Source: Rhodospirillaceae bacterium (GTDB lineage Bacteria; Pseudomonadota; Gammaproteobacteria; Steroidobacterales; Rariloculaceae). Taken from it: a stretch of DNA of 32,564 nucleotides. The notes beneath the pieces are model-generated. The model had not been told where the DNA came from, ran no database searches, and was given only the letters and a program-made list of their open reading frames with translations. The stretch covers positions 1 through 32,564 of the forward strand of contig JAHEEM010000012.1 of assembly GCA_024640695.1 (NCBI GenBank). Direction: 5' to 3'. The position numbers were made by a program, and so were the translations under genes. Below are positions 8,550 to 32,409 of this stretch, one piece after another (the first letter of the stretch is position 1; every line of letters starts with the position of its first letter).

Positions 8550-8636
8550 GTACCAGCTAGCCGGGCCCAGCCGCTAAATCGAGTTGCTACCTAGAGCAGC
8601 TACGAGGAGCTGCCTGCGCCGAGCAGGATCCTCCGG

Positions 8637-9410
8637 CTAGCGCAGCCGCGACCACGGCAACAGGTAGCTGCGGCCGCTGGCGGTGCCGCGGACGGCCGTA
8701 ACGCGGTAGACGCGCTCAAGATTATCCTCGGTCAGCACCTCGGTCGGCGTGCCGTTGGCGATGACCTGGCCGTCATGCAACAGCACCACACGATCCATGT
8801 AGCGCATCGCAAGTGTCAGATCGTGAAGCACGGCAAGTACACCGGTGCCGCGATGCGCCGTGTCGCGCAGGATCTCCATGACGTGCAGTTGATGATAGGG
8901 ATCCAGGCCGGTAACGGGCTCGTCGGCGAGCAGCAGCGGCGCTTCCACGGCCAGGGCTCGAGCGAGCAGCACGCGCGTGCGCTCGCCACCGGAGAGCACC
9001 GTGGCAGCTCGATCAGCCAGAGCAGCTGCGTCGACCGAGTTCATCGCGCGATCGACCGCATCGAGGCAGGCCTTGCTCGGTGGGGCAAAACCGCGTGTGT
9101 AAGGGTAGCGTCCAAGCATGACCACATCCCGTGAGGGCAGCGGCCACTCGATGTGGCGGTCCTGGGGCAGGTAGGCCAGCGTGCGTGCGCGCATTCGCAT
9201 GCTATAAGTACTAATCAAGGTGCTGTCCAGCATCACACGGCCGCTCGTAAAGGGCTGGGCGCCGATGATCGTGCGCAGCAGCGTCGACTTGCCGGCACCG
9301 TTTGGGCCGATAAGCCCGACCAACTCACCGGGCGCGAGCGTGAGGTTCACGTGATCGAGCAGCAAGCGCTTCGGTGCGCGCACGACGATGTCATCTACGG
9401 TCAGCTTCAT
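8637..9410 (-). CDS. btuD: ABC transporter ATP-binding protein, cobalamin/iron-chelate type
   Basis: GPNGAGKSTLLRTIIG, LSGGERTRVLLARALAVEAPLLLADEPVTGLDP; FecE/BtuD-like. Downstream of a cobalamin riboswitch. Confidence 0.88.
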   Translation of the reverse strand: MKLTVDDIVVRAPKRLLLDHVNLTLAPGELVGLIGPNGAGKSTLLRTIIGAQPFTSGRVMLDSTLISTYSMRMRARTLAYLPQDRHIEWPLPSRDVVMLGRYPYTRGFAPPSKACLDAVDRAMNSVDAAALADRAATVLSGGERTRVLLARALAVEAPLLLADEPVTGLDPYHQLHVMEILRDTAHRGTGVLAVLHDLTLAMRYMDRVVLLHDGQVIANGTPTEVLTEDNLERVYRVTAVRGTASGRSYLLPWSRLR

Positions 9411-9423
9411 CGATGTCCCGCGA

Positions 9424-10422
9424 TCATGCGTCGTAAGCGGTACGGCTGCGGACGACGAGATAGAAGAAGAATGGCACGCCTATCAATGCTGTGACGACGC
9501 CGAGATGAAGTTCGCTTTGTGTTGCGACGACCCTTACGAGCACGTCGGCGCTCAGCAACAGTGATGCCCCGCCGAGCGCACTCGCCGGCAGCAGTTTGCT
9601 CGGCTGAAATCCGACCAGCGGGCGGAGCAAATGCGGCACGACGAGGCCAACGAAGCCGATCACGCCGCTGACCGCAGTCGCTGCGCCCACGCAGCATGCG
9701 GCTCCGATCGTGACGAGCAGTCGCAGCCGGCCCATGTTTACACCGAGGCTGACCGCCGTCTCCGTCCCAAGGCTCAGTGCGTCCAGGGGTCGGGCGGTCA
9801 TGGCGAGCAATATCCATCCCACGGCCATGAACGGGGTGATGAGCCAGAAATGGCTCATGCTGCGATCCGTGATGGAACCGAGCAGCCAGAACACGATCTC
9901 CAGGGATGCGAACGGATTCGGTGAAATCGATAGTGCGAGCGAGGTCAGTGCCCCGCAGAGGCTCGAGATGGCGACGCCGGCGAGAATCAGCGTCAATGTG
10001 CCGCCGCCTGTTGTCAGTGGCTGCAGTATCAGCACAGCGATCAGCGAGCCAGAGATCGCAAGCAGTGGCAGTGCCACTGGGAACTGCAGCGCGAGACCCG
10101 AGTAGATGGCGATGACCGCGCCGAGCGCAGAGGCGCTCGAGATGCCGATCACGCCAGGCTCCGCGAGCGGGTTGCGCAGATAGCCTTGCAGGCATGCGCC
10201 AGCAAGCGCGAGACTCGCGCCAATGACGGTGCCGAGTAAAGCGCGGGGCAGCCGCAACTCCCAGAAGATCAGTGACAGCGTGTCGGCGTTCTCGTCGTGC
10301 AGGAGACCCCGCAGCTCGGCGAAGCTGAGGCCGGACGGGCCGACGGCCAGCGAGGCCGCGAATGACAGAAACGTGAGTCCGGCTAAAAGGAGCAGCAGCC
10401 GCGAATAAGCGATGTCGCGCAT
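9424..10422 (-). CDS. btuC: FecCD-family permease, BtuC-like
   Basis: LPRALLGTVIGASLALAGACLQGYLRNPLAEPGVIGISSASALGAV and GVIGFVGLVVPHLLRPLVG motifs. Confidence 0.92.
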   Translation of the reverse strand: MRDIAYSRLLLLLAGLTFLSFAASLAVGPSGLSFAELRGLLHDENADTLSLIFWELRLPRALLGTVIGASLALAGACLQGYLRNPLAEPGVIGISSASALGAVIAIYSGLALQFPVALPLLAISGSLIAVLILQPLTTGGGTLTLILAGVAISSLCGALTSLALSISPNPFASLEIVFWLLGSITDRSMSHFWLITPFMAVGWILLAMTARPLDALSLGTETAVSLGVNMGRLRLLVTIGAACCVGAATAVSGVIGFVGLVVPHLLRPLVGFQPSKLLPASALGGASLLLSADVLVRVVATQSELHLGVVTALIGVPFFFYLVVRSRTAYDA

Positions 10423-11330
10423 CAGGCTCCGTTCTCGGTGCCGCGGACGAGCGCATCGCGGGCGTTGCGCAGCTGTTCGAGCGCGTCGAGGCTATGCAGC
10501 GTCCCGCAGAGCCAAGCGCTATCGGGAATCTCCAGCGCCTTCGCCTCGCGCATCACGGCCCGCACGACGGGGTGACGGCGCTGCTCAGACGCGAGCGCAG
10601 GCGGGTCATCCCAGGGATAACCGAGATCGATCAGGGCCGGGCGCAGCAACAGCAGCGCCTCGAGGCTGATGCGGGTCGATTGCGTGAATCCGAGTCGATC
10701 GCCGGGCGTCGATAAACCCGCGCGGTGAACGATGTCGGCGAGTAATCCCGTCTGGCCGGTGGTCCAGCCGTTCGCATCGTAGTTGACGAACAGCGGCCGT
10801 TGATGCTTGTCATCGACGCTCAGTCGATCGAGCCGCCGGTCGAACTCGTCGATGAGCTGCGACGCTCGCTCATCGGTGCCGAGCGCGGCGCCTAGCGTAC
10901 GTAGATTATCCTCGATCTCCTCCAACGTGTCCGCCATCGGCAGTTCGAGCACCGCGTAGCCGAGCCGCCTGAGCAGGCTTACTGTCGGCCGAAATCCGAA
11001 GGGTCCCGTGACGACGAGATCGGGTGTCAGCGCGATGATCTCCTCGGCGATGCCGTGGTTGAGGTGGATACCTTCGACCTGTGAAGCAATGCTCGAGGTA
11101 CGCGCATCCGCAGCGATGTATGACAACGAGGCGATACGCTGGCGCGGCGCGAGGCTCATCACGAGCTGGTCCGTACAGACGTTGATGGATGCGATGCGCT
11201 GCGGGAATCGCTCGCTGGCTGGCGCAGACAACGGCAGCAGCAGGGCGGCTGCTAGGGCCCAGCGCCGGGCGCGACGAAGCGGCGCCCGGCGGGTCGGAGC
11301 GCCCTGCGTCGGCAGCTTTGTATTGTTCAC
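10422..11330 (-). CDS. btuF: Periplasmic substrate-binding protein, BtuF-like
   Basis: Signal peptide; RIASINVCTDQLVMSLAPRQRIASLSY and EIIALTPDLVVTGPFG motifs; start overlaps the permease gene boundary; GTG start with AGGTG upstream. Confidence 0.88.
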   Translation of the reverse strand: MNNTKLPTQGAPTRRAPLRRARRWALAAALLLPLSAPASERFPQRIASINVCTDQLVMSLAPRQRIASLSYIAADARTSSIASQVEGIHLNHGIAEEIIALTPDLVVTGPFGFRPTVSLLRRLGYAVLELPMADTLEEIEDNLRTLGAALGTDERASQLIDEFDRRLDRLSVDDKHQRPLFVNYDANGWTTGQTGLLADIVHRAGLSTPGDRLGFTQSTRISLEALLLLRPALIDLGYPWDDPPALASEQRRHPVVRAVMREAKALEIPDSAWLCGTLHSLDALEQLRNARDALVRGTENGA

Positions 11331-11483
11331 GGCAACACCTCGAGTTCATCGCACGTAGGCGGTTGCCGGTTGGTTGATAGCTGCTTCCGGGCAGCTTACG
11401 CGTCGCACACCGACTGACCGCGTCGGTGTCGCCACTGCGGTTCGACCGCTCCGCTGGGTTGACCCGCCCCCGGATGGACGACT

Positions 11484-11665
11484 TGACGGCAGGTCTCCTG
11501 GCTTGCGGCTCGCTGCTCTACCACTCGCCTTCCCAGGCTCGCGCCCAGTGGCAGATAGTGAATGGTGAGCTAGCCGCTTACAGTTGCGGGCACAGCCACG
11601 GCCTCAGGCAGCTCTGCCTTCACCGTGTTCCCTTTCAAACCCCAAAGGGGTACCGTCACCGTTGA
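11484..11665 (-). ncRNA. Cobalamin (adenosylcobalamin-type) riboswitch upstream of btuFCD
   Basis: Minus strand shows in order GGTGA...GGGAACACGGTGAA, GCTGTGCCCGCAACTGTAAGCGG, TGCCACTGGG, and GAGCCGCAAGCCAGGAGACCTGCCGTC, the conserved core of cobalamin riboswitches. Confidence 0.95.
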
Positions 11666-11828
11666 CTATAGTCCTGGCTGAGGGGGGCGGCAAGCCAAGA
11701 TGCCGGCGCAGTTTGCCGCGTGTCGCAGACGGCCACTCTAATAACGAGGGTAGCGTCGCATGGTTTGCGTCTAATGTTCAGCTGATTGACAGACTCAGCG
11801 CAACATCAGATCAACTGAAGGTGCCTTA

Positions 11829-12944: not shown

Positions 12945-15900
12945 ATGACCCATCGCGATCTCAAAGGAGCTAGCAGCCAGAATCGTACCGACGGTGAGCC
13001 GGTGCTAATTTCAGGTCAGCAGGCGCTCGTGCAGTTGCTGTTGCTGCAGAGCCAGCGCGACCGCCTCGCCGGTCTGAACACTGCCGGCTTCGTCTCAGGC
13101 TACCGGGGCTCGCCTCTGGGTGGGCTGGACCTCGAGCTATGGCGGGCTGCTAGCGAACTCGAGGCGGCGCAGGTTCGATTCGAGCCCGGCCTCAATGAGG
13201 AGCTCGCGGCTACCTCGGTTTGGGGTGCGCAGCAGGCCAATCTATTCTCCGATGCGCGCTTCGATGGTGTCTTCGCTCTCTGGTACGGAAAAGGGCCGGG
13301 AGTCGATCGGTCTGGGGATGCGATCAAGCACGGTAACGCGGCTGGCACATCTCGCTACGGAGGTGTGCTCGTTGTTGCCGGCGACGACCATGCATGTAGA
13401 TCCTCGACTCTGCCGCAGCAGAGTGAGTTCATGTTCATGGATGCGATGATGCCGGTGCTGAACCCGGGCAGCGTTGCTGAGCTCATCGAATTCGGCCTGC
13501 AGGGCTATGCGCTGTCGCGATACAGTGGTTGCTGGGTCGGATTCATCGTCACTCAAGAGACTGCCGATGCAGCTCAAACAGTCACGCTCGGGCAGTCAAT
13601 GATCGAGCCAGTCGAGCCGGACTTCGCCCTGCCTGCCGACGGTCTGAATATTCGTTGGCCGGATCCGCCGCTTGCGCAGGAGCATCGTCTGCACATGCAC
13701 AAGCTCCAAGCAGCAACAGCGTTTGCACGCGCAAACCGGCTCGACCGCGTCATTTGGAACTCGCCGCGAGCGCGCATCGGCTTGGTGGCTGTCGGCAAGT
13801 CATACGGCGACCTCATGCAGGCTCTGAGTATGCTCGGAGTGGATGCCGAGCGTGCTGCCGTTCTCGGGATCAGCCTATACAAAGTAGGCATGAGCTGGCC
13901 GCTCGAGCCGGAGGGCATCGCCAATTTTTCGTCGGGGCTGGAGGAGATCATCGTCGTCGAGGAAAAACGCGGCGTGGTCGAGATGCAGATTAAGGAGCAG
14001 CTCTACGACAGGCGCACCGGCGCCTCGCCCATCGTCATCGGCAAGCAAGACGAGCGCGGTGCACCGCTGTTACCGAGTACCGGCGAGCTCACGGCGGGTC
14101 TCGTGGCATGCGCGCTGGCACAGCGGCTCGCACGGATCCATCAGAGCGGCGAGCTCGCGCATCGCATAGCCAAGCTCGTGGATGTCTCGCCTGCACGGCT
14201 GACGACTGGGCTGGGCGGCGGACGCCTGCCGCACTTCTGCTCTGGCTGCCCGCACAACACGTCGACGCGGGTTCCCGAAGGCAGTCGCGCCGCGGCCGGT
14301 ATCGGCTGTCATTTCATGGCGCTGTGGATGGACCGGTCGACCGCGACGTACACCCAGATGGGCGGAGAGGGGGCCACGTGGATCGGGCAAGCGCCGTTCG
14401 TTAGCACCGAGCACATGTTTCAGAACCTCGGTGACGGTACCTACACCCATTCAGGGCTGCTCGCTATACGCGCGGCCGTGGCGGCTGGTGTCAACATCAC
14501 ATTTAAGATCCTCTACAACGATGCCGTGGCGATGACTGGCGGGCAGCCTGTCGAGGGCGGTTTCAGCCCGGCACAAATCGCTCGGCAGCTCGTCGCGGAA
14601 GGCGTTGGGCGTGTGGTTATTGTCAGTGAACACCCGGGCAAGTATGCCGGCGACGCAGGGGTTCCGCCCGCCGTCAATGTCTTCGGCAGAGACGAGTTGG
14701 ATCGCGTGCAGATTCAACTGCGCGGGCACAAGGGCGTATCGGCACTGATCTACGATCAGGCCTGTGCGGCCGAGACGCGGCGCAAGCGCAAGCGCGGCCT
14801 CGCGCCGACGCCGGAGCGGCGCGTGGTTATCAATGATCTCGTTTGTGAGGGATGCGGAGATTGCAACGCACAGTCCAACTGCCTGTCGGTGCTGCCGCTC
14901 GAGACGGAGCTGGGCCGCAAGCGGACGATCGATCAATCAGCTTGTAATCGGGATTACAGCTGTCTAAAAGGCTTCTGCCCGAGCTTTGTTACCCTGCGCG
15001 GTGCCGCGCCGCGGCGCCGTGAGCTGAAGCTGCCGGCAGATTTGCCCATGCCTGCCACGGCGTCACGCACAGGCGCATTCAATATCGTTATCGCCGGTGT
15101 CGGCGGAACTGGCGTGGTGACCTCAGGCCGGGTTCTGGCGCTTGCCGCGCATCTCGAAGGCAAGTCGGTTGTCGGGCTCGCGCAGACCGGGCTCGCGCAG
15201 AAATTTGGTGCCGTCCTTTCCCACGTCCGCATCGCAGACAGCGCCGCTGAGCTTTGCGGCGGTCCGCGTGTAGCCGAAGGACAAACCGATCTGCTGCTCG
15301 CGAGTGACCTCATGGTAGCGGCGGCGCAGTCCGCGCTGACACTGCTGGCGCCCGATCGCTCGGCCATCGTCGTCGATTCTCATCACGGGCTGCCGCCGGC
15401 GTTCATACACGAGCGCGATCTCGAGTTTCCCGCGCGGGCACTGCTTGCAGCCCTGGAGGAGCGCGGGCGCAGCGATAGCTTCACGGTGTTCGACGCCACT
15501 CGCTACGCAACGGAGCTGCTCGGTGACGCGATGCTGGCCAATGTAGTGATTCTCGGTGCGGCTTTGCAGCTCGGGCTCCTTCCCGTTTCCGAAGCTGCGA
15601 TCGATCGCGCGTTCGAGCAGTTCGGCAGCGCGGCGGAAAAGAACAGGCGCGCGCTGACGCTCGGGCGCTATGCCGCACACGACCCCGCCGGGCTTGAGTC
15701 GATGTGCGGGTCGCGCCGCCCGGCGCCGCAGCCGTTAGACGATGTCGATGCCCTCATCGAACACCGCAAGGCGTTCTTGACCGATTATCAGGACGCAGCG
15801 TACGCGGACCGATACGCCGCGCTGGTCGAGCGTATTCGGGCGAAGGAAACGAGTGTCGCCCCAGGGAGTACGGCCTTGATGGCGGCGGTCGCGCGGGAGT

Positions 15901-16430
15901 ACTTTCGGCTGCTCGCTTATAAAGATGAGTACGAAGTCGCGCGGCTGTTCACTCAGTCGGGCTTCATCGAGCAGCTGCAAGCGGACTACGAGGGCCCGAT
16001 GCGGTTGTCCTTGCATCTCGCGCCGCCGCTGCTCAGCCGTATCGATCCGACCTCGGGCCGCCCGCGCAAGCTCGAGTTCGGCCCATGGATCTTCGTCGTG
16101 CTGCGTCTGCTCGCGCGGCTGCGCCGTCTTCGCGGCGGTCCGTTCGATTTCTTCGGCTATGGTCGGGAGCGGCGGATGGAGCGGCAACTACTGCGCGACT
16201 ATGAGGCGCTGCTGACGCAGCTGGGCGATGAGCTCGACGCCACGCGGCTGCCTCTGGCGGTGGCGCTCGCCGAGCTGCCAAAGGAAATCCGCGGATTCGG
16301 GCCGGTCAAGGCTGCGGCAGTGGCACGGGCCGCGTCGGAAAAAGCGGAGCTGCTGGCCGAGTGGCAAGCAGCTGGAGCTGCGAGAACGACCGATCGGGCC
16401 GCCGTGCCGGCACAGCAGCGCTCAGCTTAG
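12945..16430 (+). CDS. Fused indolepyruvate (2-oxoacid) ferredoxin oxidoreductase family protein
   Basis: 1161 aa; GFVSGYRGSPLGGLD N-terminus, TPP region (HFCSGCPHNTST, YNDAVAMTGGQP), Cys-rich cluster motif CEGCGDCNAQSNC, and gamma domain GVGGTGVVTSGRVLA. Confidence 0.93.
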   Translation: MTHRDLKGASSQNRTDGEPVLISGQQALVQLLLLQSQRDRLAGLNTAGFVSGYRGSPLGGLDLELWRAASELEAAQVRFEPGLNEELAATSVWGAQQANLFSDARFDGVFALWYGKGPGVDRSGDAIKHGNAAGTSRYGGVLVVAGDDHACRSSTLPQQSEFMFMDAMMPVLNPGSVAELIEFGLQGYALSRYSGCWVGFIVTQETADAAQTVTLGQSMIEPVEPDFALPADGLNIRWPDPPLAQEHRLHMHKLQAATAFARANRLDRVIWNSPRARIGLVAVGKSYGDLMQALSMLGVDAERAAVLGISLYKVGMSWPLEPEGIANFSSGLEEIIVVEEKRGVVEMQIKEQLYDRRTGASPIVIGKQDERGAPLLPSTGELTAGLVACALAQRLARIHQSGELAHRIAKLVDVSPARLTTGLGGGRLPHFCSGCPHNTSTRVPEGSRAAAGIGCHFMALWMDRSTATYTQMGGEGATWIGQAPFVSTEHMFQNLGDGTYTHSGLLAIRAAVAAGVNITFKILYNDAVAMTGGQPVEGGFSPAQIARQLVAEGVGRVVIVSEHPGKYAGDAGVPPAVNVFGRDELDRVQIQLRGHKGVSALIYDQACAAETRRKRKRGLAPTPERRVVINDLVCEGCGDCNAQSNCLSVLPLETELGRKRTIDQSACNRDYSCLKGFCPSFVTLRGAAPRRRELKLPADLPMPATASRTGAFNIVIAGVGGTGVVTSGRVLALAAHLEGKSVVGLAQTGLAQKFGAVLSHVRIADSAAELCGGPRVAEGQTDLLLASDLMVAAAQSALTLLAPDRSAIVVDSHHGLPPAFIHERDLEFPARALLAALEERGRSDSFTVFDATRYATELLGDAMLANVVILGAALQLGLLPVSEAAIDRAFEQFGSAAEKNRRALTLGRYAAHDPAGLESMCGSRRPAPQPLDDVDALIEHRKAFLTDYQDAAYADRYAALVERIRAKETSVAPGSTALMAAVAREYFRLLAYKDEYEVARLFTQSGFIEQLQADYEGPMRLSLHLAPPLLSRIDPTSGRPRKLEFGPWIFVVLRLLARLRRLRGGPFDFFGYGRERRMERQLLRDYEALLTQLGDELDATRLPLAVALAELPKEIRGFGPVKAAAVARAASEKAELLAEWQAAGAARTTDRAAVPAQQRSA

Positions 16431-20327: not shown

Positions 20328-20996
20328 TCAGTACACCGTGGGTTCGCATGCGAACGGCAAGAGCTCCCAATCGGGCGCGAACACGAACTCATAGTCCGAA
20401 GAGAACGGCACGCGGAAATACTCGGGGTCTGTAATCGTGAGCGCGACGCTTAGATAGCGGCCGCCGTTACGGTTCTCGACGGCATAGACCTCACGCAAGG
20501 TCATCGCTGCGCTCTTCGGTGTTCCGTTCCGGTCGACTTCGCCCGCGGTCAGGTGCGTAGTCTCGATAACGAGCCTGGCGTCCTCCCAGCGGCCGATCGC
20601 ATGGCCGTTCGGCGTATGCGCGGCGTTCTGCGGCAGCGGTGCTCCGTTCATTTGGACTGTTCGCACGACGTCCATCGTCTCGTAGCGGATCGTGAGCGTG
20701 CTGTTCTCGAAGTCGAAGGTCATCGGACTGACCGGCATGAAGCCGCGAGGCATGCCGGGTGGCTCGCAGCGTAACGCCGGGTCCTGATCGAGACGAAAAC
20801 TCTCGAGGCGCTCGCGGCCCGCCGCAGTCAATGGGTAGTCGACGACGCGGGTGCCCGGCGGGGTCGATGATCTCCAGACCCCGCTCTCGAGTGTCGCGAT
20901 CGTCTCGGGACTGGCCGAGACCCTCCCCGGGCCGAGCAAGGCGATGCTCGAGGCCAGAGCCGAGATCAAGCCCGGCAGAGATCTAGCGTTCAACAC
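20328..20996 (-). CDS. Hypothetical secreted protein with IGRWE-type motif
   Basis: Signal-peptide-like N-terminus; NGHAIGRWEDARLVIETTHL resembles GRWEGDTLVVDS in the divergent ORF at 21163-22710. GTG start. Confidence 0.7.
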   Translation of the reverse strand: MLNARSLPGLISALASSIALLGPGRVSASPETIATLESGVWRSSTPPGTRVVDYPLTAAGRERLESFRLDQDPALRCEPPGMPRGFMPVSPMTFDFENSTLTIRYETMDVVRTVQMNGAPLPQNAAHTPNGHAIGRWEDARLVIETTHLTAGEVDRNGTPKSAAMTLREVYAVENRNGGRYLSVALTITDPEYFRVPFSSDYEFVFAPDWELLPFACEPTVY

Positions 20997-21162
20997 CCGC
21001 TCTCCTGGAGCGCAGCTCGCATCGGCTGCTATAGTGGTGATCCTACCCGCACCTGCGCCGCCGATGCTACTTGCTGCCGCAGCGGTCGCAGTCGCGCCGC
21101 AGTCGTTCTTGAATCCATCGGCGTTTTGCGGTCGAATCCGGGGTGCAGAATTAGGGGGGCGT

Positions 21163-22710
21163 GTGCGGTTACAGGTATTGATGGTGTTGGCGGTCTTCGT
21201 GGGCTCTGCGTCCGCGCAGACACTCCCGCGTGCAGCCGACGGGCGCCCTGATCTGCAGGGTATCTGGCGGGTTGTCGAACGTGCCGGCTACGACCTCGAG
21301 GACCACGCAGCGCGGCACGATATGCCGGCTGGCCGCAGCGTCGTCGACGGCGGCCTGATTCCTTATCAGTCATGGGCGGCAGAGCAGCAGCGCGCCAACT
21401 TTTCAAATCGTGCGACGGTCGATCCACTCAGGAGCTGCTATCTGCCGGGTGTCCCGCGCGTCATGGCGCTGGACTTTCCGTTCCACATTTTTCAGACCAA
21501 CGAGCATATCGCGATCACGTTCGAGTGGCAGCAGGTCTACCGGCTCATCTACACGGACGGCGAGCCGTCGCTTTACGGTGGGGTCGAATCCTGGATGGGC
21601 AGCTCGCGCGGTCAATGGGAGGGCGACGTGCTCGTCGTCGAGGTCACCGATCAGAACGAGCGGACTTGGCTCGATGCGGCCGGGAATTTTCATAGTAATG
21701 CGATGCGCGTGACCGAGCGCTACCAAATGCGCGATGCCGACACAATCGACTACGAGGCGACGATCGAAGATCCCGGTGTGTTCTCGCGCCCGTGGACAAT
21801 GCGTCTTCAGTTTCGGCGCCAGACGCACATGGACCGGATTCTCGAGTACCAGTGCCAGGCCGAGAAAGAAGAGGCCAGCGGCGCTTTCGAACGCGATGCG
21901 CGTACCTGGTATCCGGCACCTATTCCTGAAGCTAACGAACCCTTCGATTTCGAGGCGGGCGCTGAGGTTCCGTTGCCTGAGGTGCCAGCCGACATTCCAC
22001 GGCATGCGGACGGCACGCCCGACATCAGCGGTTATTACATGGCTGATGCAGGCGGTGCGAATTACGGCCTCGAGGAGCACCCCGGCGACGAACTGACGCC
22101 GCCGAGCCGCGGCCAGGTTATAGATCCGACGGATCGGACCTTGCCATATCAGGCCTGGGCGAGAGCGGAGCGTATCGATCGCGTGCTGCCGCACCGCGGT
22201 TACGACGACCCCACAGCGCATTGCTTCGTTGCCGGCGTGCCGCGGTCGCATTATGTGCCCGCACCGTTCTTTATTCTGCAGCCGCCGGGCTACGTCGTCG
22301 TGTTGCACGAGCGTATGTCATGGCGCCAAATCCGTCTGGATGACGGCGAGCATCTGCCCGAGCACCTGCGCTTGTGGCAGGGTGATTCGATCGGGCGCTG
22401 GGAGGGAGATACCCTTGTCGTGGATTCGCGTAATTTCAACGGCAAGGCCTGGCTCAACGAGGTCGGCGACGTCGTTAGCCACGCTCAGACAGTCGTCGAG
22501 ACCTTTACGCCAGGGAGCCCGACGCAGCTGATTTACCGTGCGACCGTCACGGACCCAATCGCGTATACCCGCCCATGGACGATCGAGATGCCGTTTAACC
22601 GTCAAGCCGAGGAGCTGCTCGAGGTCGCGTGTCTTGAAGACAATAATGACCTCGAGCACTTGAAGGACGTTCGCGATGCGTACCGCACGGGCCAGAGTTC
22701 AGGAGAGTAA
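21163..22710 (+). CDS. Uncharacterised secreted protein with two tandem homologous domains
   Basis: Signal peptide (MVLAVFVGSASAQ). Two repeats each with GxPDxxGxY/W...PYQxWA...GVPR...GxWEGDxLVVxxxxxxxxxWLxxxG...DPxxxxRPWT. GTG at 21163 with a G-rich RBS; ATG at 21181 also possible. Confidence 0.8.
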   Translation: MRLQVLMVLAVFVGSASAQTLPRAADGRPDLQGIWRVVERAGYDLEDHAARHDMPAGRSVVDGGLIPYQSWAAEQQRANFSNRATVDPLRSCYLPGVPRVMALDFPFHIFQTNEHIAITFEWQQVYRLIYTDGEPSLYGGVESWMGSSRGQWEGDVLVVEVTDQNERTWLDAAGNFHSNAMRVTERYQMRDADTIDYEATIEDPGVFSRPWTMRLQFRRQTHMDRILEYQCQAEKEEASGAFERDARTWYPAPIPEANEPFDFEAGAEVPLPEVPADIPRHADGTPDISGYYMADAGGANYGLEEHPGDELTPPSRGQVIDPTDRTLPYQAWARAERIDRVLPHRGYDDPTAHCFVAGVPRSHYVPAPFFILQPPGYVVVLHERMSWRQIRLDDGEHLPEHLRLWQGDSIGRWEGDTLVVDSRNFNGKAWLNEVGDVVSHAQTVVETFTPGSPTQLIYRATVTDPIAYTRPWTIEMPFNRQAEELLEVACLEDNNDLEHLKDVRDAYRTGQSSGE

Positions 22711-23360: not shown

Positions 23361-24269
23361 TCAGCTGGCGCGCCCATAGATGTAGTCGACAACCCAACTT
23401 AGACCCGCTGCCTCGGGGCCCAGCGCGCTCGCGATGGCGACGATCTCTTCGTAGAGGCTCTGGGCCCGTTGGCGCGCAGCATCTACTCCGAGCACCGATG
23501 GATACGTCGACTTCTGATTGTCTCGATCTGAAGTCGCGCTTTTGCCGAGGGTTGCGGTGTCCTGGTCGATCTCGAGCAAATCATCCCGAATCTGAAACAG
23601 TAAGCCCAGATCAGTCGCGAGCCGATCCAACCGGCTTGAGACACCCGCGGCGGGCTTAGCGAGCTCTACCGGCATCATGACGGCCGCGCGGATGAGTTCG
23701 CCTGTTTTGCGGCGATGGACATCTTCGAGCTGTGCCTCGGTGAGCGGCTTGCCTTCGGCCTGCAAGTCCAGCATCTGGCCGCCGACCATTCCGGCGGGAC
23801 CGGCCGCGCGTGCCAGCCATGTGACGATATTGAGGCGCGCTTCGGGAGCGGCGGTGAGCGAGTCGTCGCAGCACAGAATCTCGAACGCTAGCGCCTGTAA
23901 TCCGTCGCCGGCAAGTATTGCCGTGGCCTCGTCGAACGCTCGGTGCGTGGTTGGTCTGCCGCGGCGGAGATCGTCGTTGTCCATCGCCGGAAGATCGTCG
24001 TGCACCAAAGAATACGCGTGAACGAGCTCGACCGCTGCAGCGATCGCGTCGAGCCCCTCCAACCCGACACCGAAAACCTCGCCTGTCGCGTAGGTCAGCA
24101 GTGGGCGGACGCGCTTACCGGGGCCCAGCACGGAGTACTCGATTGCTTCAACGAGGCGCGGCGGAATTCGCTTATCCGCACTCAAAGCTGTCTCGAGCCT
24201 TTTAACCACGCGCTCACGGTAGTGCTCAGCGCGCGTCGCGAATGTCGGCGGTGTCCCACGTGCTATCAT
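23361..24269 (-). CDS. ispA: Short-chain trans-prenyl diphosphate synthase (farnesyl/geranylgeranyl diphosphate synthase, IspA-like)
   Basis: GPGKRVRPLL, HAYSLVHDDLPAMDNDDLRRGRPTTH first Asp-rich motif, FQIRDDLLEID second Asp-rich motif. Confidence 0.95.
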   Translation of the reverse strand: MIARGTPPTFATRAEHYRERVVKRLETALSADKRIPPRLVEAIEYSVLGPGKRVRPLLTYATGEVFGVGLEGLDAIAAAVELVHAYSLVHDDLPAMDNDDLRRGRPTTHRAFDEATAILAGDGLQALAFEILCCDDSLTAAPEARLNIVTWLARAAGPAGMVGGQMLDLQAEGKPLTEAQLEDVHRRKTGELIRAAVMMPVELAKPAAGVSSRLDRLATDLGLLFQIRDDLLEIDQDTATLGKSATSDRDNQKSTYPSVLGVDAARQRAQSLYEEIVAIASALGPEAAGLSWVVDYIYGRAS

Positions 24270-24296
24270 GGCGGCCCATCCTAACACCGATATTGC

Positions 24297-25421
24297 GTGC
24301 ATCGCCTGCGCATCGTGAACTCCGATTCGAGCCGATCACTCGGCGCCCCGCTAGCAGATCTGAGCTTCCAGGCCGCGATACTCCCCGGGGTTTCGCGGAC
24401 GTTCGCGCTGACAATACCGGTGCTGCCTGAAGATCTCGCCAAAGTCGTCGCAAATGCGTATCTGCTGTGCCGCCTGGCGGACACGATTGAAGACGACATC
24501 GGTATCGAAGACATCGCCAAGACGGCCTTCCACGATCGGCTCGTTGCGGTCGTTCGCGGCGAAACCGACGCCGAGGGCTTTGCACAGGCACTTTTGCCGT
24601 TGCTGTCGGAGAGGACGCTTGCGGCGGAGCGGGAGCTCGTTAGTAATGCTGCCAAGGTGATTCGAGTGACGCATTCGTTCTCCGCGAATGATCAGCAAGC
24701 CATCATCAACTGTCTCAGTCGGATGTGCGCCGGAATGCCCGAGTTCCAGCGACATCGGAATCTCGGCGGGCTTACGGACCTCAGCGATCTGTCCGCGTAT
24801 TGTTACGTGGTTGCCGGCGTTGTCGGTGAGATGCTGACGGAGCTTTTCTGTGAGCACAGTCCGACGATCGCCGGCAACCGTCAAGAGCTGATGCGTTTGG
24901 CGCCGTCCTTCGGACAGGGATTGCAGATGACCAATATTCTCAAAGACGTTTGGGAGGATCGGCGAGCTGATACCTGCTGGTTACCCCGCTGTGTGTTTGG
25001 AAAAGGCTTCGATCTAACACGGCTTGACGAGCTCTATGTCACTGCGGAATACCGCCACGGTATCGAGGAGCTTACGGGGATCGCGCATCATCATCTGCGC
25101 GATGCGCTCGAGTATGCGCTGCATCTCCCGGCCTCAGAGACTGGGATGCGCCGGTTTTGCTTGTGGGCCATCGGCTTCGCCGTGCTGACGCTGCGTAAGG
25201 TGCAGAAGTACTGCGATTTCAGGCACGGCGAGAGAGTGAAGATCTCCAGGCGCAGCGTTCGCGCGGCCGTCGTCACGGTGAACTTGTCGTCTCGCAGCAA
25301 CTGGGCCTTGCGCTCTCTGTTCGATCTCGCCGCCACTGGCTTGCCGCTTGTGGCCGGTGAATCCTTTAATGGCTCCAACTACAAGCTTATCCGCCGGCAG
25401 CCGAATGCGGACCGGACCTGA
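24297..25421 (+). CDS. Squalene synthase-like (squalene/phytoene synthase family)
   Basis: SRTFALTIPVLP...AYLLCRLADTIEDD first Asp motif; GQGLQMTNILKDVWEDRRADTCWLP second Asp motif. GTG at 24297 or 24315. Confidence 0.9.
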   Translation: MHRLRIVNSDSSRSLGAPLADLSFQAAILPGVSRTFALTIPVLPEDLAKVVANAYLLCRLADTIEDDIGIEDIAKTAFHDRLVAVVRGETDAEGFAQALLPLLSERTLAAERELVSNAAKVIRVTHSFSANDQQAIINCLSRMCAGMPEFQRHRNLGGLTDLSDLSAYCYVVAGVVGEMLTELFCEHSPTIAGNRQELMRLAPSFGQGLQMTNILKDVWEDRRADTCWLPRCVFGKGFDLTRLDELYVTAEYRHGIEELTGIAHHHLRDALEYALHLPASETGMRRFCLWAIGFAVLTLRKVQKYCDFRHGERVKISRRSVRAAVVTVNLSSRSNWALRSLFDLAATGLPLVAGESFNGSNYKLIRRQPNADRT

Positions 25422-25468: not shown

Positions 25469-26448
25469 ATGCAGTCGAGTGCGCGCGCACATGCAAACAT
25501 CGCTCTGGTCAAGTACTGGGGGAAATCCGACCCCGTCCTGAACGTGCCTGCGGTAGGGTCGCTATCGGTGACGCTCGACAAGCTATGGTCGGACACGCAG
25601 GTCGAGTTCTCTCCAGCGTTGCGCCACGATTCCTTGGTGCTCGACGGCAAACAGGATGCGGCGCAGCTCGCACGCGTGTCAGGCTGCCTGGATCTTCTGC
25701 GGGAGCGCGCCGGCACGCATGATCGCGCCGCCGTTGTGAGTCGTAACAACTTTCCGACCGGCGCTGGCTTGGCTTCCTCGGCCTCCGGATTCGCGGCGCT
25801 CGTGTGCGCGGCGGCGCGGGCTTTAGAGCTTGAGCTCTCACCGACCGAACTCAGCATACTGGCGCGGCGGGGCTCGGGTTCAGCAGCACGCTCTATCTTT
25901 GGCGGTTACGTTGAGATGCACGCCGGGGCGGCGGCGGATGGAAGCGACAGTTACGCAGAGGCCGTGCTGCAGGCGGCGGATTGGCCCCTGACCGTTGTCA
26001 TCGCCGTAACGACGCGGGAGCCCAAGGCCACGGCTCGACCCAAGGGATGCAAGCCACGGCCGCGACGTCGCCGTACTACCCGGCATGGATCGAGTCGAGC
26101 ACTTTGGATCTCGGTACGGCCAGGCAGGCTATTTGCGGTCGAGACTTTCCGCGGCTGGCCGAGGTCGCCGAGCACAGCTGTCTCAAGCTGCATGCGCTGG
26201 CGATGTCGAGCCGCCCCGGATTGATCTACTGGAACCCCGCCACGGTTGCGTGCATCGACGCGGTCCGCAAGCTGCAGCGTGACGGTATGCCGGTCTTCTT
26301 TACCATCGATGCGGGCCCGCAGCTTAAGGCGCTGTGTCTTCCGGAAGCTACTGACGATGTGGTCGATGCGCTCCGCGCGCTTCCCGGCGTGCTGGACTTG
26401 ATCGTGACGGGTCTCGGACCTGGCGTCGAGCCAGCTCAGGCCTCGTGA
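25469..26448 (+). pseudogene. mvaD: Diphosphomevalonate decarboxylase with an apparent frameshift near 26026-26032 (real lesion or sequencing error)
   Basis: 5' ORF: SSARAHANIALVKYWGK, NNFPTGAGLASSASGFAAL, GSGSAARSIFGGYVEM, ending ...REPKA. 3' ORF continues in the -1 frame: HGSTQGMQATAATSPYYPAW...FTIDAGPQLKAL. Together they give one full-length MDD. Confidence 0.9.
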
Positions 26449-27431
26449 AGGTCTTCGCCCGCGCGCCCGGCAAGCTCATCGTGCTGGGCGAGTACGCGGT
26501 GCTTGCCGGCGGTCCGGCACTCGTGATGGCCGTTGATCGGCACTGCAGCGCCGTGATCCAGGCGAGCACTGACTCGGCGTGCCACTTGCGAACCCGAATA
26601 GATACGGATACGCAGACGAGCTTTGTAGCCGGGCAACCCAGTGGAGTCGGTCTTGTGGATCTTGTGACCGGCCGGTCACGGAGCCCGCTGCCCGAACCCT
26701 GGACGGCAACTCTGGACAGCCGTGCGCTATTCGGTCGCAATGGCAAGCTCGGGCTTGGCTCGAGCGCCGCGGCGCTGACGGCCTGGGCGGGCGCATGGGC
26801 GGCCTATATGGGGGCTCACAAGCCCGATGTTACCGAGCTCATTGCCGTGCACCGTGAGTGGCAGGGTGGCGCCGGCAGTGGGCTCGACGTCGCGGCCAGC
26901 CGGCTCGGCGGCGTGTTGTGTTATCGGCTCGGTGAGGACGGTAGCCCCGATATCATTTCAGTCAGATTGCCGGACAGTGTAGGATTCGTCGGTGTTTGCA
27001 CGGGTCAAGCCGCTTCGACAGGCGGTTTGGTCCGGCGTTTCCAAGCCTGGCGGGAGAACAATCCGATCGCGGCGCATGCTCAAGTCGACCGCATGCGGCA
27101 GATTGCCGAGAGCGGTGTCGATGCTGCTCGGATGAACGCCGCGACTGATTTTATTTCTGCCGTCGCCAGTTATTCAGCGGCGCTGGACGCCTTGGGCCGA
27201 GCCGTCGGTGCCGATATCGTGACGACCGAGCATCGTTCGATTGCGGCGGTAGCCGAGCGCTTCGGCGTGACCTACAAGGTCAGTGGCGCAGGCGGCGGCG
27301 ACGTCGGTGTCGCGCTCGCCGCCGATACTGAGGCGCTCGACGCGTTCGCGGCGGCTGTGCCGACCGAGCACGAGGTGCTGCGCCTGGGCATCGACGGGGC
27401 CGGGATGGTGACCGAGATACGCTCAGTGTGA
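26445..27431 (+). CDS. Phosphomevalonate kinase (GHMP family)
   Basis: FARAPGKLIVLGEYAVLAGGPALVMAVD, LGLGSSAAALTAWAGA, KVSGAGGGDVGVAL. GTG start overlaps the MDD stop (GTGA). Confidence 0.9.
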   Translation: MKVFARAPGKLIVLGEYAVLAGGPALVMAVDRHCSAVIQASTDSACHLRTRIDTDTQTSFVAGQPSGVGLVDLVTGRSRSPLPEPWTATLDSRALFGRNGKLGLGSSAAALTAWAGAWAAYMGAHKPDVTELIAVHREWQGGAGSGLDVAASRLGGVLCYRLGEDGSPDIISVRLPDSVGFVGVCTGQAASTGGLVRRFQAWRENNPIAAHAQVDRMRQIAESGVDAARMNAATDFISAVASYSAALDALGRAVGADIVTTEHRSIAAVAERFGVTYKVSGAGGGDVGVALAADTEALDAFAAAVPTEHEVLRLGIDGAGMVTEIRSV

Positions 27432-29704
27432 GTAAGGAACGTATGCGCATACCGGAGTTCTACAAGCTTAGCGTCAAAGAGCGTGTCAAAGCCGTAGCCG
27501 ATAGAGATCTGCTCGGCCCCGAGGAGCTCGAGGCGCTCGCCACTGGTGCGCACACGCTCGACCTCGAATCGGCCGACAAGATGATCGAGAACGTCGTCGG
27601 CGTCATGGGTCTGCCCCTCGGCCTCGGAATGAATCTGTGCGTTAACGGCAAGCGGTACATCGTTCCGATGGCAGTAGAAGAGCCGTCCGTGGTCGCGGCG
27701 CTGAGCTCGGCCTCAAAACTGGTGGGCGAGCATGGAGGATTCCAAGCCACGGCAACGGATCCGGTGCTCATAGGCCAGATTCAGATTGTCGACCTGTTGG
27801 ATATCGAGCGCGCCAAGCGTGCCATCAGGGAACAGACGCAGGACATCCTGAATCTTGCTAACAGCTTCCACCCCAATATGGTGGCGCGAGGAGGCGGCGC
27901 AAAGGACATCGAGCTATTCGTGCATCAGTTGCCCTCCAGCGGCAAGCCGATGCTCGTTGCGCATCTGCTCGTGGATACGCGCAATGCCATGGGCGCCAAT
28001 CTCGTCAACGGGATGTGCGAAGGCGTCGCGCCACTGATCGAGACAATCACGGGCGGTCAGGTGTTCCTGCGCATCCTGTCGAACCTCACGGATCGCGCGC
28101 TCGTCCGAGCAAGCTGCAAGATACCCATCGAAGCCCTTGCTGGGCGCGGTTACACCGGAGAGCAGGCCCGTGACGGTATTATCCTTGCTGCCGATTTCGC
28201 CGCCGTCGATGCTTACCGCGCGGCGACGCATAACAAGGGTGTCATGAACGGCATCGATCCAATTGCAATCGCGACCGGTAACGACTGGCGCGCGCTCGAG
28301 GCCGGCGCGCACGCGTTCGCCGCACGCGGCGGCCGCTACACTTCCCTGACCACCTGGGCGGCTGACGAGGCCGGCAATCTCTGCGGTAGCCTAGAGATGC
28401 CGATCAAGGTCGGTATCGTCGGCGCTCAGCAGGAGTCCAATCCGACTGTCGCGCTCAATCTGAAGCTGCTGGGCGTGGCAAGCGCGACCGAATTGGCGAA
28501 GGTCATGGGTGCTGCGGGACTCGCGCAGAACTTTGCCGCGATCAAGGCGCTCGCGACCGAGGGTATTCAGAAGGGGCATATGACCTTGCACGCGCGCAGC
28601 GTTGTCACGGCAGCCGGAGCCCCAGAGGACATCTTCGACGAGGTGCTCGATCGCCTGGTTCAGAGCGGTGAAATCAAGATCTGGAGAGCGCGTGAGATCC
28701 TCGACGAGATCACCGGTCGTGCCAGCGAGGCAGCGGCTGGCGGCTCCGCGCGGGACTTAGATTTGGCGGGCATGGGTGTCGGCTACGGTAAAGTGGTGAT
28801 TCTTGGTGAGCACGCGGTCGTCTACGGCCGTCACGCGATTGCGGCGCCGATTCCGCTCGCAATTCGTGCGCGCATCGAGGACTGCGATAATGGAATTCAC
28901 ATCATGATCCCGCGCTGGGGCGTCGAGTATCAGCTCGCCGAGCATCCGAGCGAGCGGCGGTCTTTCGAGCGTGCGGCCGGAGCCATACTCGATCAGCTCG
29001 GTCTGAGCGGGCGCAGCATGCGGATCGAGGTCTTTCCAGAAGTGCCGCGGGGAATGGGGCTCGGCGGTTCCGCAGCGATGGCAGTCGCCATTGTGCGAGC
29101 CCTCGATGCGCACTTCTCGCTGCGGCTCGACGACGAGCAGGTCAACCGTCTGGCCTTCGAATCGGAGAAGCTTGCCCACGGCAACCCAAGCGGGCTCGAT
29201 AATTTGATTGCGTGTTACGGTCGGCCGCTTGTCTACAGGCCGGGAACACCGCCCCTTGTCGAGGAGCTCAACATTGTCGATCCGATTCCGATCGTGATCG
29301 GGATGACAGGTAAAGAAGGTCTCACGGCCAGCACGGTAGCGCGTGTCGGAGAGGCCTGGCGGCAGGATCCGAAGCTCTATGAGCGAATCTTCGACCAGAT
29401 CGATGGCCTCGTGCTGCGTGGCGTGCAAGCGATACAGGATCGAGACCTGATGACGCTCGGCGAGCTGATGAACATTTGTCACGGTATGCTCAATGCGCTG
29501 CAGGTGTCCACGCCCGAGCTGGAGCGGCTCGTCTCGATTGCACGTGACAATGGGGCGCTCGGTGCCAAGCTTACGGGCGGCGGCGGCGGCGGCTCGATCA
29601 TCGCGCTGTGCGACGCCGACACGGCGCCAGTCGTCGCTGCGATTCGCGCGGCCGGCTACCAGGCTTTCCCTGTGATGCTCGGCGGAGCGGCTGATGACGC
29701 GTAG
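27428..29704 (+). CDS. Fused class II HMG-CoA reductase (N-terminal) and mevalonate kinase (C-terminal)
   Basis: HMGR: ENVVGVMGLPLGLGMNLCVNGKRYIVPMAVEEPSVVAA, NAMGANLVN, HNKGVMNGIDPIAIATGNDWRA, GHMTLHARS. MK: GKVVILGEHAVVYGRHAIAAPIP, PRGMGLGGSAAMAVAIVRALD, GNPSGLDN, GAKLTGGGGGGSIIAL. One uninterrupted 758-aa ORF. Confidence 0.95.
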   Translation: MSKERMRIPEFYKLSVKERVKAVADRDLLGPEELEALATGAHTLDLESADKMIENVVGVMGLPLGLGMNLCVNGKRYIVPMAVEEPSVVAALSSASKLVGEHGGFQATATDPVLIGQIQIVDLLDIERAKRAIREQTQDILNLANSFHPNMVARGGGAKDIELFVHQLPSSGKPMLVAHLLVDTRNAMGANLVNGMCEGVAPLIETITGGQVFLRILSNLTDRALVRASCKIPIEALAGRGYTGEQARDGIILAADFAAVDAYRAATHNKGVMNGIDPIAIATGNDWRALEAGAHAFAARGGRYTSLTTWAADEAGNLCGSLEMPIKVGIVGAQQESNPTVALNLKLLGVASATELAKVMGAAGLAQNFAAIKALATEGIQKGHMTLHARSVVTAAGAPEDIFDEVLDRLVQSGEIKIWRAREILDEITGRASEAAAGGSARDLDLAGMGVGYGKVVILGEHAVVYGRHAIAAPIPLAIRARIEDCDNGIHIMIPRWGVEYQLAEHPSERRSFERAAGAILDQLGLSGRSMRIEVFPEVPRGMGLGGSAAMAVAIVRALDAHFSLRLDDEQVNRLAFESEKLAHGNPSGLDNLIACYGRPLVYRPGTPPLVEELNIVDPIPIVIGMTGKEGLTASTVARVGEAWRQDPKLYERIFDQIDGLVLRGVQAIQDRDLMTLGELMNICHGMLNALQVSTPELERLVSIARDNGALGAKLTGGGGGGSIIALCDADTAPVVAAIRAAGYQAFPVMLGGAADDA

Positions 29705-30278
29705 AGAAATAGTATCCAGCGCTGCCGAAGCGTTGTTGCTCGTTGACGAGCAAGATCGCGAGATCGGTGTCGAGAGCAAGCAAGCGTGCCATGCCGGGGG
29801 CGGCCTACTGCACCGCGCGTTTTCGATATTCCTCTTCAACAGCCAGGATGAGCTGCTGCTGCAAAAGCGCAGCGCTCAGAAGCCCCTGTGGCCGAGCTAC
29901 TGGTCGAATACCTGCTGCTCGCATCCCCGGGCTGGAGAAACGATGGAGCAGGCTGTCGCGCGTCGCCTGGCTGAAGAGCTCGGTATCCAGTGCACGCTAC
30001 GCTTTCTTTATAAGTTCAAGTATCACGCTGCGTATGGGTCGCTCGGCTCCGAGCGGGAGTACTGCTGGGTCTACGTTGGGCACTACGACGGCCATCCCCG
30101 TGTAAACCTAAACGAGATTGCCGACTGGCGCTACGTCGATGTCTCCAGTTTCGACGCGGAGCTTGCCGCGGCGCCGGAGCGGTTCACACCATGGCTCAAG
30201 CTCGAGTGGGCGGAGATCAAGCAAGCGCATCTGCCTCAGATTCTCGGCTCAGCAGGTTCCCAGCAGTTAGTGAACTAG
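29694..30278 (+). CDS. idi: Isopentenyl-diphosphate delta-isomerase, type I (Nudix)
   Basis: LLHRAFSIFLFNSQDELLLQKRS, SYWSNTCCSHPRAGET, RRLAEELGI, EREYCWVYVG. Start overlaps the upstream stop by 11 nt. Confidence 0.95.
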   Translation: MTRREIVSSAAEALLLVDEQDREIGVESKQACHAGGGLLHRAFSIFLFNSQDELLLQKRSAQKPLWPSYWSNTCCSHPRAGETMEQAVARRLAEELGIQCTLRFLYKFKYHAAYGSLGSEREYCWVYVGHYDGHPRVNLNEIADWRYVDVSSFDAELAAAPERFTPWLKLEWAEIKQAHLPQILGSAGSQQLVN

Positions 30279-30945: not shown

Positions 30946-32409
30946 CTAGTTCAGGAAGCGATAGTATTCGATGCCTTCGTCATTGATGCCCGGGCTTTGG
31001 CTCGTACCGACCGACTCGATCACAAAGCCGTCGTGCGGGGCGCTCAGGCCTGCGGCCTGCCCACTATCGTGCAGATTCTCATACTGCTTGCGGCTTAGCG
31101 TCTGCTGGGGCTGCAGCGCCGCTCTGAAGCCGATCCGCGAGGCCGCATCGCGCCAGCTGGCCGCGACGCTCATCGGTATTGCCTCTGCGGCATCGCCGCT
31201 GCCGTAACCGACCGCCAGCACGGGCTTGCCCGTGAGATCGACGCTGCTCTCGAAGGCCTCCTCGAGGCCCGCCGCAATCCAGGCGGGCAGTGCGGCGCAA
31301 TAGACGTTGCCGATGTCCTTCATGAGCTCGGCGCCGAGCGACATCTTCTCGGTGACTAGGGTCTTGAAGCCGTGGCTGACTCGGAAGTCCTTCACGAGCT
31401 GGATGCTCAACGGGTACACGTCTGCGTCGATGTCGCGTGCACGGACGAGATCCAGGATGTCCGGCGTCGAGTGCATCTCTTGCACGACAGCTGCCGGATC
31501 CAGATTCGCTGCGCGGCAGTGAATTGCAAGCTCCTGGCGTCCCGCCGGCCCATTCTTTGCGAGGCCGACCAGGTAGCTCAGCGCAAACGACGTGAGCGGC
31601 ATACGATGATAAGGCCGATGCATGAACGCGGCGGCTAGGCTGTGATAGTAGTCCGCCGGTTGCTGGTCCATCCGACGCAGCATGTCCTCGAGCGCGTGCA
31701 GCGTCTCGTCCAGATAGCAGGTCGTCGAGTACTTGCCGTTGAATACTGGCAGGTCCTGAAAATGGCAGTTGAGCTTGCCACGGATGAGATTGCGCATGAC
31801 GGGCTTGCGGAAATCGACGGCGCGATAGGCCGAGGCGGTGCCGATGTGCCGGAGCTCGATGTCTAATAGTTTTGGGTTGTGCTCGAGCAACATGGCGACG
31901 GCGCCGGCGCCCTGAGTAGGTTCGCCTGTGCTGCCGCGTGCATACTCGGCGATATCGGCGCTGACGACGATCGCGCAGCGTGATTCCGCTTCAAGCGCGA
32001 GGTATCTGAGGCCCTGCTTGAGCGCGTAGATGCCGCCCAAGCAGGCGTGCTTGATCTCCGGAACCTCGCACTGGCGGCTGATCTCGGGCAGGCCTCGCGC
32101 ACGCAGCCCGTCGTCGAGCATACCTTTGATGATGATCGCGCCGGCGGAGTTGTCGGTGCTCGACTCGGTGCCGAGCCCGAGAAATCCGATCCGGGTCGGG
32201 TCGACATCGTACTGCTCGATGAGGCGCATCACAGCGTTGGCAGCCATCGTGTAGACGCTTTGGTCGGGCCCCCGCATCCGGAAGCTGCGTCCGATCACGG
32301 CGCTGGTCTTGTCCCACTGGGCCCCGGTCCATTCACACCAAGCTTCCAGATCCACCCGGTACGGCGGCAAATAGACGCCAAAGCCACTGATGCCGACTCT
32401 ATCGCGCAT
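30946..32409 (-). CDS. Hydroxymethylglutaryl-CoA synthase
   Basis: GISGFGVYLPPYRV, GTESSTDNSAGA (catalytic Glu region), EIKHACLGGIYALKQGL (catalytic Cys), AAFMHRPYHRMPLTS (catalytic His). About 487 aa. Confidence 0.93.
   Translation of the reverse strand: MRDRVGISGFGVYLPPYRVDLEAWCEWTGAQWDKTSAVIGRSFRMRGPDQSVYTMAANAVMRLIEQYDVDPTRIGFLGLGTESSTDNSAGAIIIKGMLDDGLRARGLPEISRQCEVPEIKHACLGGIYALKQGLRYLALEAESRCAIVVSADIAEYARGSTGEPTQGAGAVAMLLEHNPKLLDIELRHIGTASAYRAVDFRKPVMRNLIRGKLNCHFQDLPVFNGKYSTTCYLDETLHALEDMLRRMDQQPADYYHSLAAAFMHRPYHRMPLTSFALSYLVGLAKNGPAGRQELAIHCRAANLDPAAVVQEMHSTPDILDLVRARDIDADVYPLSIQLVKDFRVSHGFKTLVTEKMSLGAELMKDIGNVYCAALPAWIAAGLEEAFESSVDLTGKPVLAVGYGSGDAAEAIPMSVAASWRDAASRIGFRAALQPQQTLSRKQYENLHDSGQAAGLSAPHDGFVIESVGTSQSPGINDEGIEYYRFLN

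Follow-up and report, generated by a model that had tools for sequence, protein, structure and literature searches.

HMG-CoA reductase and mevalonate kinase joined in one reading frame: a conserved and widespread bacterial gene fusion

HMG-CoA reductase (HMGR) is a classic control point of isoprenoid synthesis. In a stretch of 32,564 nt (hereafter the window, meaning the whole stretch of DNA that was analysed), a preliminary description proposed that this enzyme and mevalonate kinase (MK) share a single frame of 758 codons, which raises the question of whether such a gene is genuine, how it might have arisen and what it might do in the cell. The frame is laid out as follows:

27428-28705, + strand: residues 1-426, the class II HMG-CoA reductase domain; its C-terminal flap (about 381-426) bears catalytic H384 (PF00368, E 2.5e-103)
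about 28706-28783, + strand: linker of 26 residues (427-452), Ala/Gly-rich and variable in length and sequence, placed by conservation and AlphaFold
28784-29701, + strand: mevalonate kinase (GHMP kinase) domain, residues 453-758, followed by the stop codon at 29702-29704 (TIGR00549)

When read out, the frame runs without internal stops from a GTG at 27428 to a TAG at 29702-29704. This GTG shares bases with the TGA that ends the upstream phosphomevalonate kinase (PMK) gene (GTGA); an alternative start, ATG 27443, lies five codons downstream and is preceded by AAGGA, in which case the protein may comprise 753 rather than 758 residues. Pfam assigns HMG-CoA_red to residues 16-389 (E 2.5e-103), GHMP_kinases_N to 514-597 and GHMP_kinases_C to 667-739, and the NCBIfam models TIGR00532 and TIGR00549 each score over their equivalog cut-offs. 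Both domains are complete, with E of about 1e-118 and 1e-71, and their junction recurs in more than 60 further genomes, far beyond chance. The observation that this gene encodes HMGR and MK in one polypeptide is confirmed. Pfam found no thiolase domain within the frame, thiolases being encoded on other contigs of the same genome, and the architecture accordingly differs from that of the MvaE protein, as had been stated at the outset.

The reductase half reaches 396.5 bits with TIGR00532 (cut-off 259.95) and covers positions 21-395 of the 395 in this profile; the class I model TIGR00533 gives 50 bits on the fusion, against a cut-off of 442. Alignment with the HMGR of Pseudomonas mevalonii (PmHMGR, 1qax) extends from end to end, with E85, K270, D286 and H384 corresponding to E83, K267, D283 and H381. 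The catalytic role of this Glu/Lys/Asp/His set is established, and all four residues are invariant across 36 aligned fusions. Foldseek matches this half to PmHMGR bound to mevalonate, CoA and NAD (TM 0.92-0.93 by target length). H148 stands where PmHMGR has D146; as the aspartate favours NADH, the histidine hints at the use of NADPH, which is offered as a guess. The half ends in the flap (about 381-426), which we take from the Pm structure to be the small mobile C-terminal domain of class II HMGRs that bears the catalytic His, and the kinase is therefore joined to a mobile piece of the reductase. Five HMGR positions, L114, K327, N338, F403 and W419, separate the fused from the unfused rows sampled. 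Two of them, F403 and W419, lie in the flap adjoining the linker, and W419 is present in 61 of 63 fused rows, where the 40 unfused rows most commonly have D, E, A or G. Judged by sequence comparison, these positions may be clade markers or docking contacts.

The kinase half scores 239.4 bits with TIGR00549 (cut-off 163.05). Its top PDB match is the MK of Leishmania major (2hfs, E 5e-42), and Foldseek likewise matches it to mevalonate kinases. The GHMP motifs GKVVILGEHAVVYG, GLGGSAA, HGNPSGLDN and KLTGGGGGGS are present, and K455, E461, S548, E580 and D591 are invariant among the 36 aligned fusions. Between the two halves, conservation drops sharply: the mean majority residue is 0.23 in the linker vs 0.71 in the HMGR core and 0.62 in MK, and the spacing from I425 to G454 ranges from 18 to 45 residues across the 36 fusion members. 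AlphaFold predicts two confident domains (mean pLDDT 85.7, pTM 0.60) with pLDDT below 50 at residues 432-445, and the interdomain arrangement is uncertain at this pTM. A flexible linker together with a modest pTM argues for tethering rather than a fixed tunnel. On these points the preliminary description has stood up well: the uninterrupted frame at 27428-29704 passes both equivalog cut-offs, the full class II HMGR motif set is borne out by TIGR00532 and by the alignment with 1qax, the complete GHMP mevalonate kinase by TIGR00549, the motifs and the catalytic Lys and Asp, and the short Ala/Gly-rich linker sought near nt 28720-28780 is placed at residues 427-452.

An order-level search covered 97 genomes, comprising that of the window and those of the same genus, family and order, 84 of which gave any match. 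The fusion was found in 65 of the 97, the window's genome included, and in 64 of these 65 the alignment crosses the junction in one frame; single-contig assemblies (G048, G076, G080 and G085) are among those in which it is open. The exception is a draft genome (G016, locus L033) with a frame change close to the invariant Lys, in the strand that opens the MK domain. Because it lies inside the MK domain and not in the linker, this change is read as an error or a broken gene, and a natural split into HMGR and MK was rejected. Internal stops had been suggested for G028, G041, G036, G063 and G070, and none lies within the fusion once the frames are read out. A class-wide draw of 184 genomes yielded an HMGR-type match in 17, fused in six (again including the window's genome). 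A scan of 85,462 species genomes identified further fused proteins beyond the order, in metagenome-assembled genomes (MAGs) named Nevskia, Woeseiaceae, Salinisphaera, Ca. Azophilus, Calditrichaceae, Acidobacteriota, Planctomycetota and Nakamurella, names which are not always reliable for MAGs, and in named strains of Cryobacterium aureum, C. levicorallinum and C. psychrotolerans (Actinomycetota). MAG TMED78 falls within or adjoins the family of the window: its HMGR domain (L076) and that of G008 (L019), a member of this family, are identical. The database search proposed in the preliminary description thus places the fusion in Gammaproteobacteria, Calditrichota, Acidobacteriota, a Planctomycetota MAG and Cryobacterium, and the stop or frameshift between the domains that it named as a refuting result is countered by the open junction in independent genomes. 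The HMGR-MK fusion is real, conserved, widespread and old.

The genomic context of the fusion in the window is the cluster MvaD-PMK-[HMGR-MK]-Idi-HMGS, flanked by prenyl-chain genes:

23361-24302, - strand: farnesyl diphosphate (FPP) synthase-type polyprenyl synthetase (NF045485 329 bits, cut-off 275)
24297-25421, + strand: squalene/phytoene synthase family (PF00494 E 2e-52; no NCBIfam equivalog above cut-off)
25469-26448, + strand: diphosphomevalonate decarboxylase (MvaD), two overlapping frames (PF22700 and PF18376; TIGR01240 185 and 93 bits)
26445-27431, + strand: phosphomevalonate kinase-like GHMP kinase (PMK; TIGR01220 81 bits, below cut-off 166)
29694-30278, + strand: isopentenyl-diphosphate isomerase type 1 (Idi, Nudix; NF002995 172 bits and TIGR02150 156 bits, both above cut-off)
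30946-32409, - strand: HMG-CoA synthase-like (HMGS), divergent (PF01154/PF08540 above cut-off)

Most loci preserve the order MvaD-PMK-[HMGR-MK]-Idi, and many have HMGS close by; in the window the fusion and the following Idi share 11 nt. The HMG-CoA synthase-like protein scores 174 bits with the prokaryotic equivalog TIGR01835, against a cut-off of 360. The PMK-like kinase is far less conserved than the fusion, with about 42-57% identity in close relatives vs 73-84%. The MvaD gene of the window seems to have lost one base in a run of G near 26032-26033, where relatives (e.g., L041, L033) have one intact frame; this is either a sequencing error or a recent mutation, and because of it the pathway is complete in this exact genome only in the former case. 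Elsewhere in the window, 12945-16430 (+) encodes a 1161-aa indolepyruvate/pyruvate ferredoxin oxidoreductase-like protein (TPP_enzyme_C, POR, DUF6537), and 20328-20996 (-) and 20851-22710 (+) encode proteins of 222 and 619 aa without a Pfam match. The larger of the two shows internal repeats by eye and has motifs in common with the smaller, e.g., WEDARLVIETT / WEGDTLVVDSRNF.

The alternative route to isoprenoids is the MEP pathway, of which DXR is the committed enzyme. No match to DXR (PF02670) was obtained in any of the 65 fusion genomes of the order, including that of the window (86.8% complete), while 29 of the 30 other genomes searched in the order carry it and one has neither fusion nor DXR. 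Within the order, the fusion cluster and DXR are mutually exclusive (65 vs 29 genomes, overlap 0). Since DXR is absent, mevalonate is likely the only source of IPP, and the sole IPP supply very probably includes the fusion; a second HMGR or MK gave no match in the window's genome at E 1e-3. A link to sterol or hopanoid precursors, as initially envisaged, found no support in the genus: squalene-hopene/oxidosqualene cyclase found no match in the window's genome or in both other genomes of the genus (all three drafts), although a match is present in 11 of 22 genomes of the family. Given the absence of DXR, it is more plausible that the fusion serves all isoprenoids rather than sterols or hopanoids specifically.

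The origin of the fusion was addressed with quickly built trees and SH-aLRT support values. In an HMGR-domain tree of 103 rows, a single branch (SH-aLRT 100) separates all 63 fused rows from the 40 unfused ones, which come from Chloroflexota, Myxococcota, Bacillota and others, and the same split was recovered after addition of 11 unfused and four fused gammaproteobacterial HMGRs (SH-aLRT 99). The fusions are also one-sided in the MK-domain tree, where support is weak (66, and 28 with more outgroups), so that the case for one origin comes from the HMGR half. Among the fusions, HMGR distances track MK distances (Mantel r 0.87; best of 999 permutations 0.29), which is what two halves that travelled together should show. 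In both trees Cryobacterium groups with the Salinisphaera MAG and Calditrichota with Acidobacteriota, which points to horizontal transfer. Touching or overlapping HMGR and MK genes, adjacent and in the same order, exist in Myxococcus, Virgibacillus, Oceanobacillus and Lentibacillus, and in such pairs the loss of a stop codon would create the fusion; they likely represent the pre-fusion state. No return to separate genes was seen among the sampled members of the fused HMGR clade. On the evidence of the HMGR trees it is likely that the two genes fused once and that the fusion then spread by descent and by horizontal transfer.

In one family (f8), the fusion has been extended further. In both sampled genomes of this family (G041 and G028), the PMK frame enters HMGR-MK without a stop:

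L022 (G041) 6665-10066, + strand: PMK-HMGR-MK part, triple fusion in frame
L021 (G028) 7558-11799, - strand: PMK-HMGR-MK part, triple fusion in frame

The 1133-aa triple fusion matches TIGR01220 over residues 5-368 (157 bits, just under the cut-off of 166), followed by TIGR00532 and TIGR00549, and the two proteins share 96% identity along their length. At the counterpart of this junction in the window, the PMK stop overlaps the HMGR start. From its domain content, the triple fusion would encode three consecutive steps, from HMG-CoA to mevalonate-5-diphosphate. Larger fusions considered from long upstream frames in L014, L075, L037 and L070 were rejected, as PMK lies in another frame there, and the true triple fusions are confined to L021 and L022 among the loci examined. 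At L025 (from 10404 onward; family f6, which groups with the Woeseiaceae MAGs), Idi lies in the MK frame a few codons past the stop, so that this locus is one stop away from a further fusion, MK to Idi.

According to the model proposed here, the N-terminal class II HMGR would convert HMG-CoA to mevalonate and the C-terminal kinase, flexibly tethered to the HMGR flap, would convert mevalonate to mevalonate-5-phosphate. The gene would have arisen once, when neighbouring HMGR and MK genes lost the stop codon that kept them apart, and would then have spread by descent and horizontal transfer among lineages that make isoprenoids by the mevalonate rather than the MEP pathway; one family would also have incorporated the upstream PMK gene, taking HMG-CoA to mevalonate-5-diphosphate in one polypeptide. 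A bifunctional HMGR-MK of mevalonate biosynthesis, with most likely one origin, spread by descent and transfer and the joining of PMK in one family, is regarded as the correct reading with considerable confidence. From the sequences we infer that both activities would run in the biosynthetic direction, with a fixed 1:1 stoichiometry as the main effect.

Several other readings were weighed against this model. The genome of the window is a draft of 356 contigs and its neighbouring MvaD does show a frameshift, so a sequencing or assembly error that removed the stop between two genes might be suspected; with the junction open in 64 genomes of the order, single-contig assemblies among them, and in several phyla including the named Cryobacterium strains, this reading is already refuted by independent genomes and retains practically no probability. 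It is only marginally easier to believe that the HMGR half is degradative and acts in mevalonate catabolism as in P. mevalonii. The best family model, TIGR00532, carries the name "degradative" and the nearest solved structures are PmHMGR and the Delftia HMGR, but the reductase is joined to a kinase that consumes mevalonate, its neighbours are PMK, MvaD, Idi, HMGS and FPP synthase, mevalonate is likely the only IPP source where DXR is absent, and H148 replaces the Asp that is linked to NADH preference. A gene that is fused while two enzymes are present in the cell, because proteases cut the linker or translation also starts internally at MK, is improbable, albeit less so than a degradative role. 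The linker is predicted by AlphaFold to be disordered and in the window ATG 28772 (M449) stands immediately ahead of the MK domain; however, M449 is unconserved, being Phe in L041 and Leu in L019, and overlapping separate genes would suffice for such an outcome, yet no sampled member of the fused clade has reverted.

True channelling, in which mevalonate would be kept from the bulk and the passage possibly gated by the flap, is a claim that could be added to the bifunctional model rather than one that competes with it. The steps are consecutive, the kinase is attached to the catalytic flap and the fusion-specific W419 and F403 lie in that flap; against this, the variable and predicted disordered linker speaks against a fixed tunnel, and W419 and F403 may be mere clade markers. 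Channelling is rated as unlikely, though clearly above the readings just discussed. Equally speculative is the wider notion of a modular megaenzyme of single origin in which a kinase on a moving flap would couple both steps mechanically or kinetically and which one lineage would have extended to PMK-HMGR-MK.

The enzymes and the pathway are known, and it is the HMGR-MK arrangement that is apparently undescribed. No description of it was found in full-text searches of papers that are largely outside subscription journals, in agreement with the initial remark that no characterised HMGR-MK fusion is known. It is likewise absent from the passages on fused, fusion or bifunctional proteins in three surveys (PMC13001223, PMC13412983, PMC11052028), and no NCBIfam model for the fused protein surfaced in searches of the window or the triple fusion. 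Automatic annotation assigns the halves to two different single-function families, and one of the two activities can thereby go unnoticed. The candidate benefits of the fusion are 1:1 supply, proximity or channelling, and it is a case from nature in which to ask whether linking consecutive enzymes is of advantage. Together with the triple fusion, it provides ready-made parts for mevalonate-pathway engineering, and it can serve as a rare genomic marker of mevalonate-pathway transfer among Gammaproteobacteria, Calditrichota, Acidobacteriota and Cryobacterium.

Among known systems, a common bacterial fusion of two isoprenoid-pathway enzymes is IspDF of the MEP pathway, according to the relevant passages of one survey (PMC13001223); it differs from HMGR-MK in belonging to the other pathway and in joining non-consecutive steps. 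The HMGR-MK pairs of Myxococcus, Virgibacillus, Oceanobacillus and Lentibacillus are separate frames, with MKs 31-37% identical to that of the window. The MKs of Leishmania (2hfs), Staphylococcus aureus (2x7i) and Methanosarcina (6mde) have the same complete GHMP motifs at about 30-32% identity; unlike the fusion, each of these solved relatives has one enzyme per chain, in a length of about 290-430 residues. Similarly, in structural alignments P. mevalonii MvaA (1qax) and the Delftia (6dio) and Burkholderia (6p7k) enzymes share the whole reductase, its catalytic residues and the flap at about 46-50% identity, but their chains end after the flap, where the fusion continues with linker and kinase. 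Another natural bacterial fusion that joins HMGR to an enzyme of its pathway is MvaE of Enterococcus and Listeria. In MvaE, an acetoacetyl-CoA thiolase, two steps upstream, sits N-terminal to HMGR, whereas the partner in the present fusion is the next downstream enzyme and is C-terminal, which makes HMGR-MK a separate fusion and not a member of the MvaE type.
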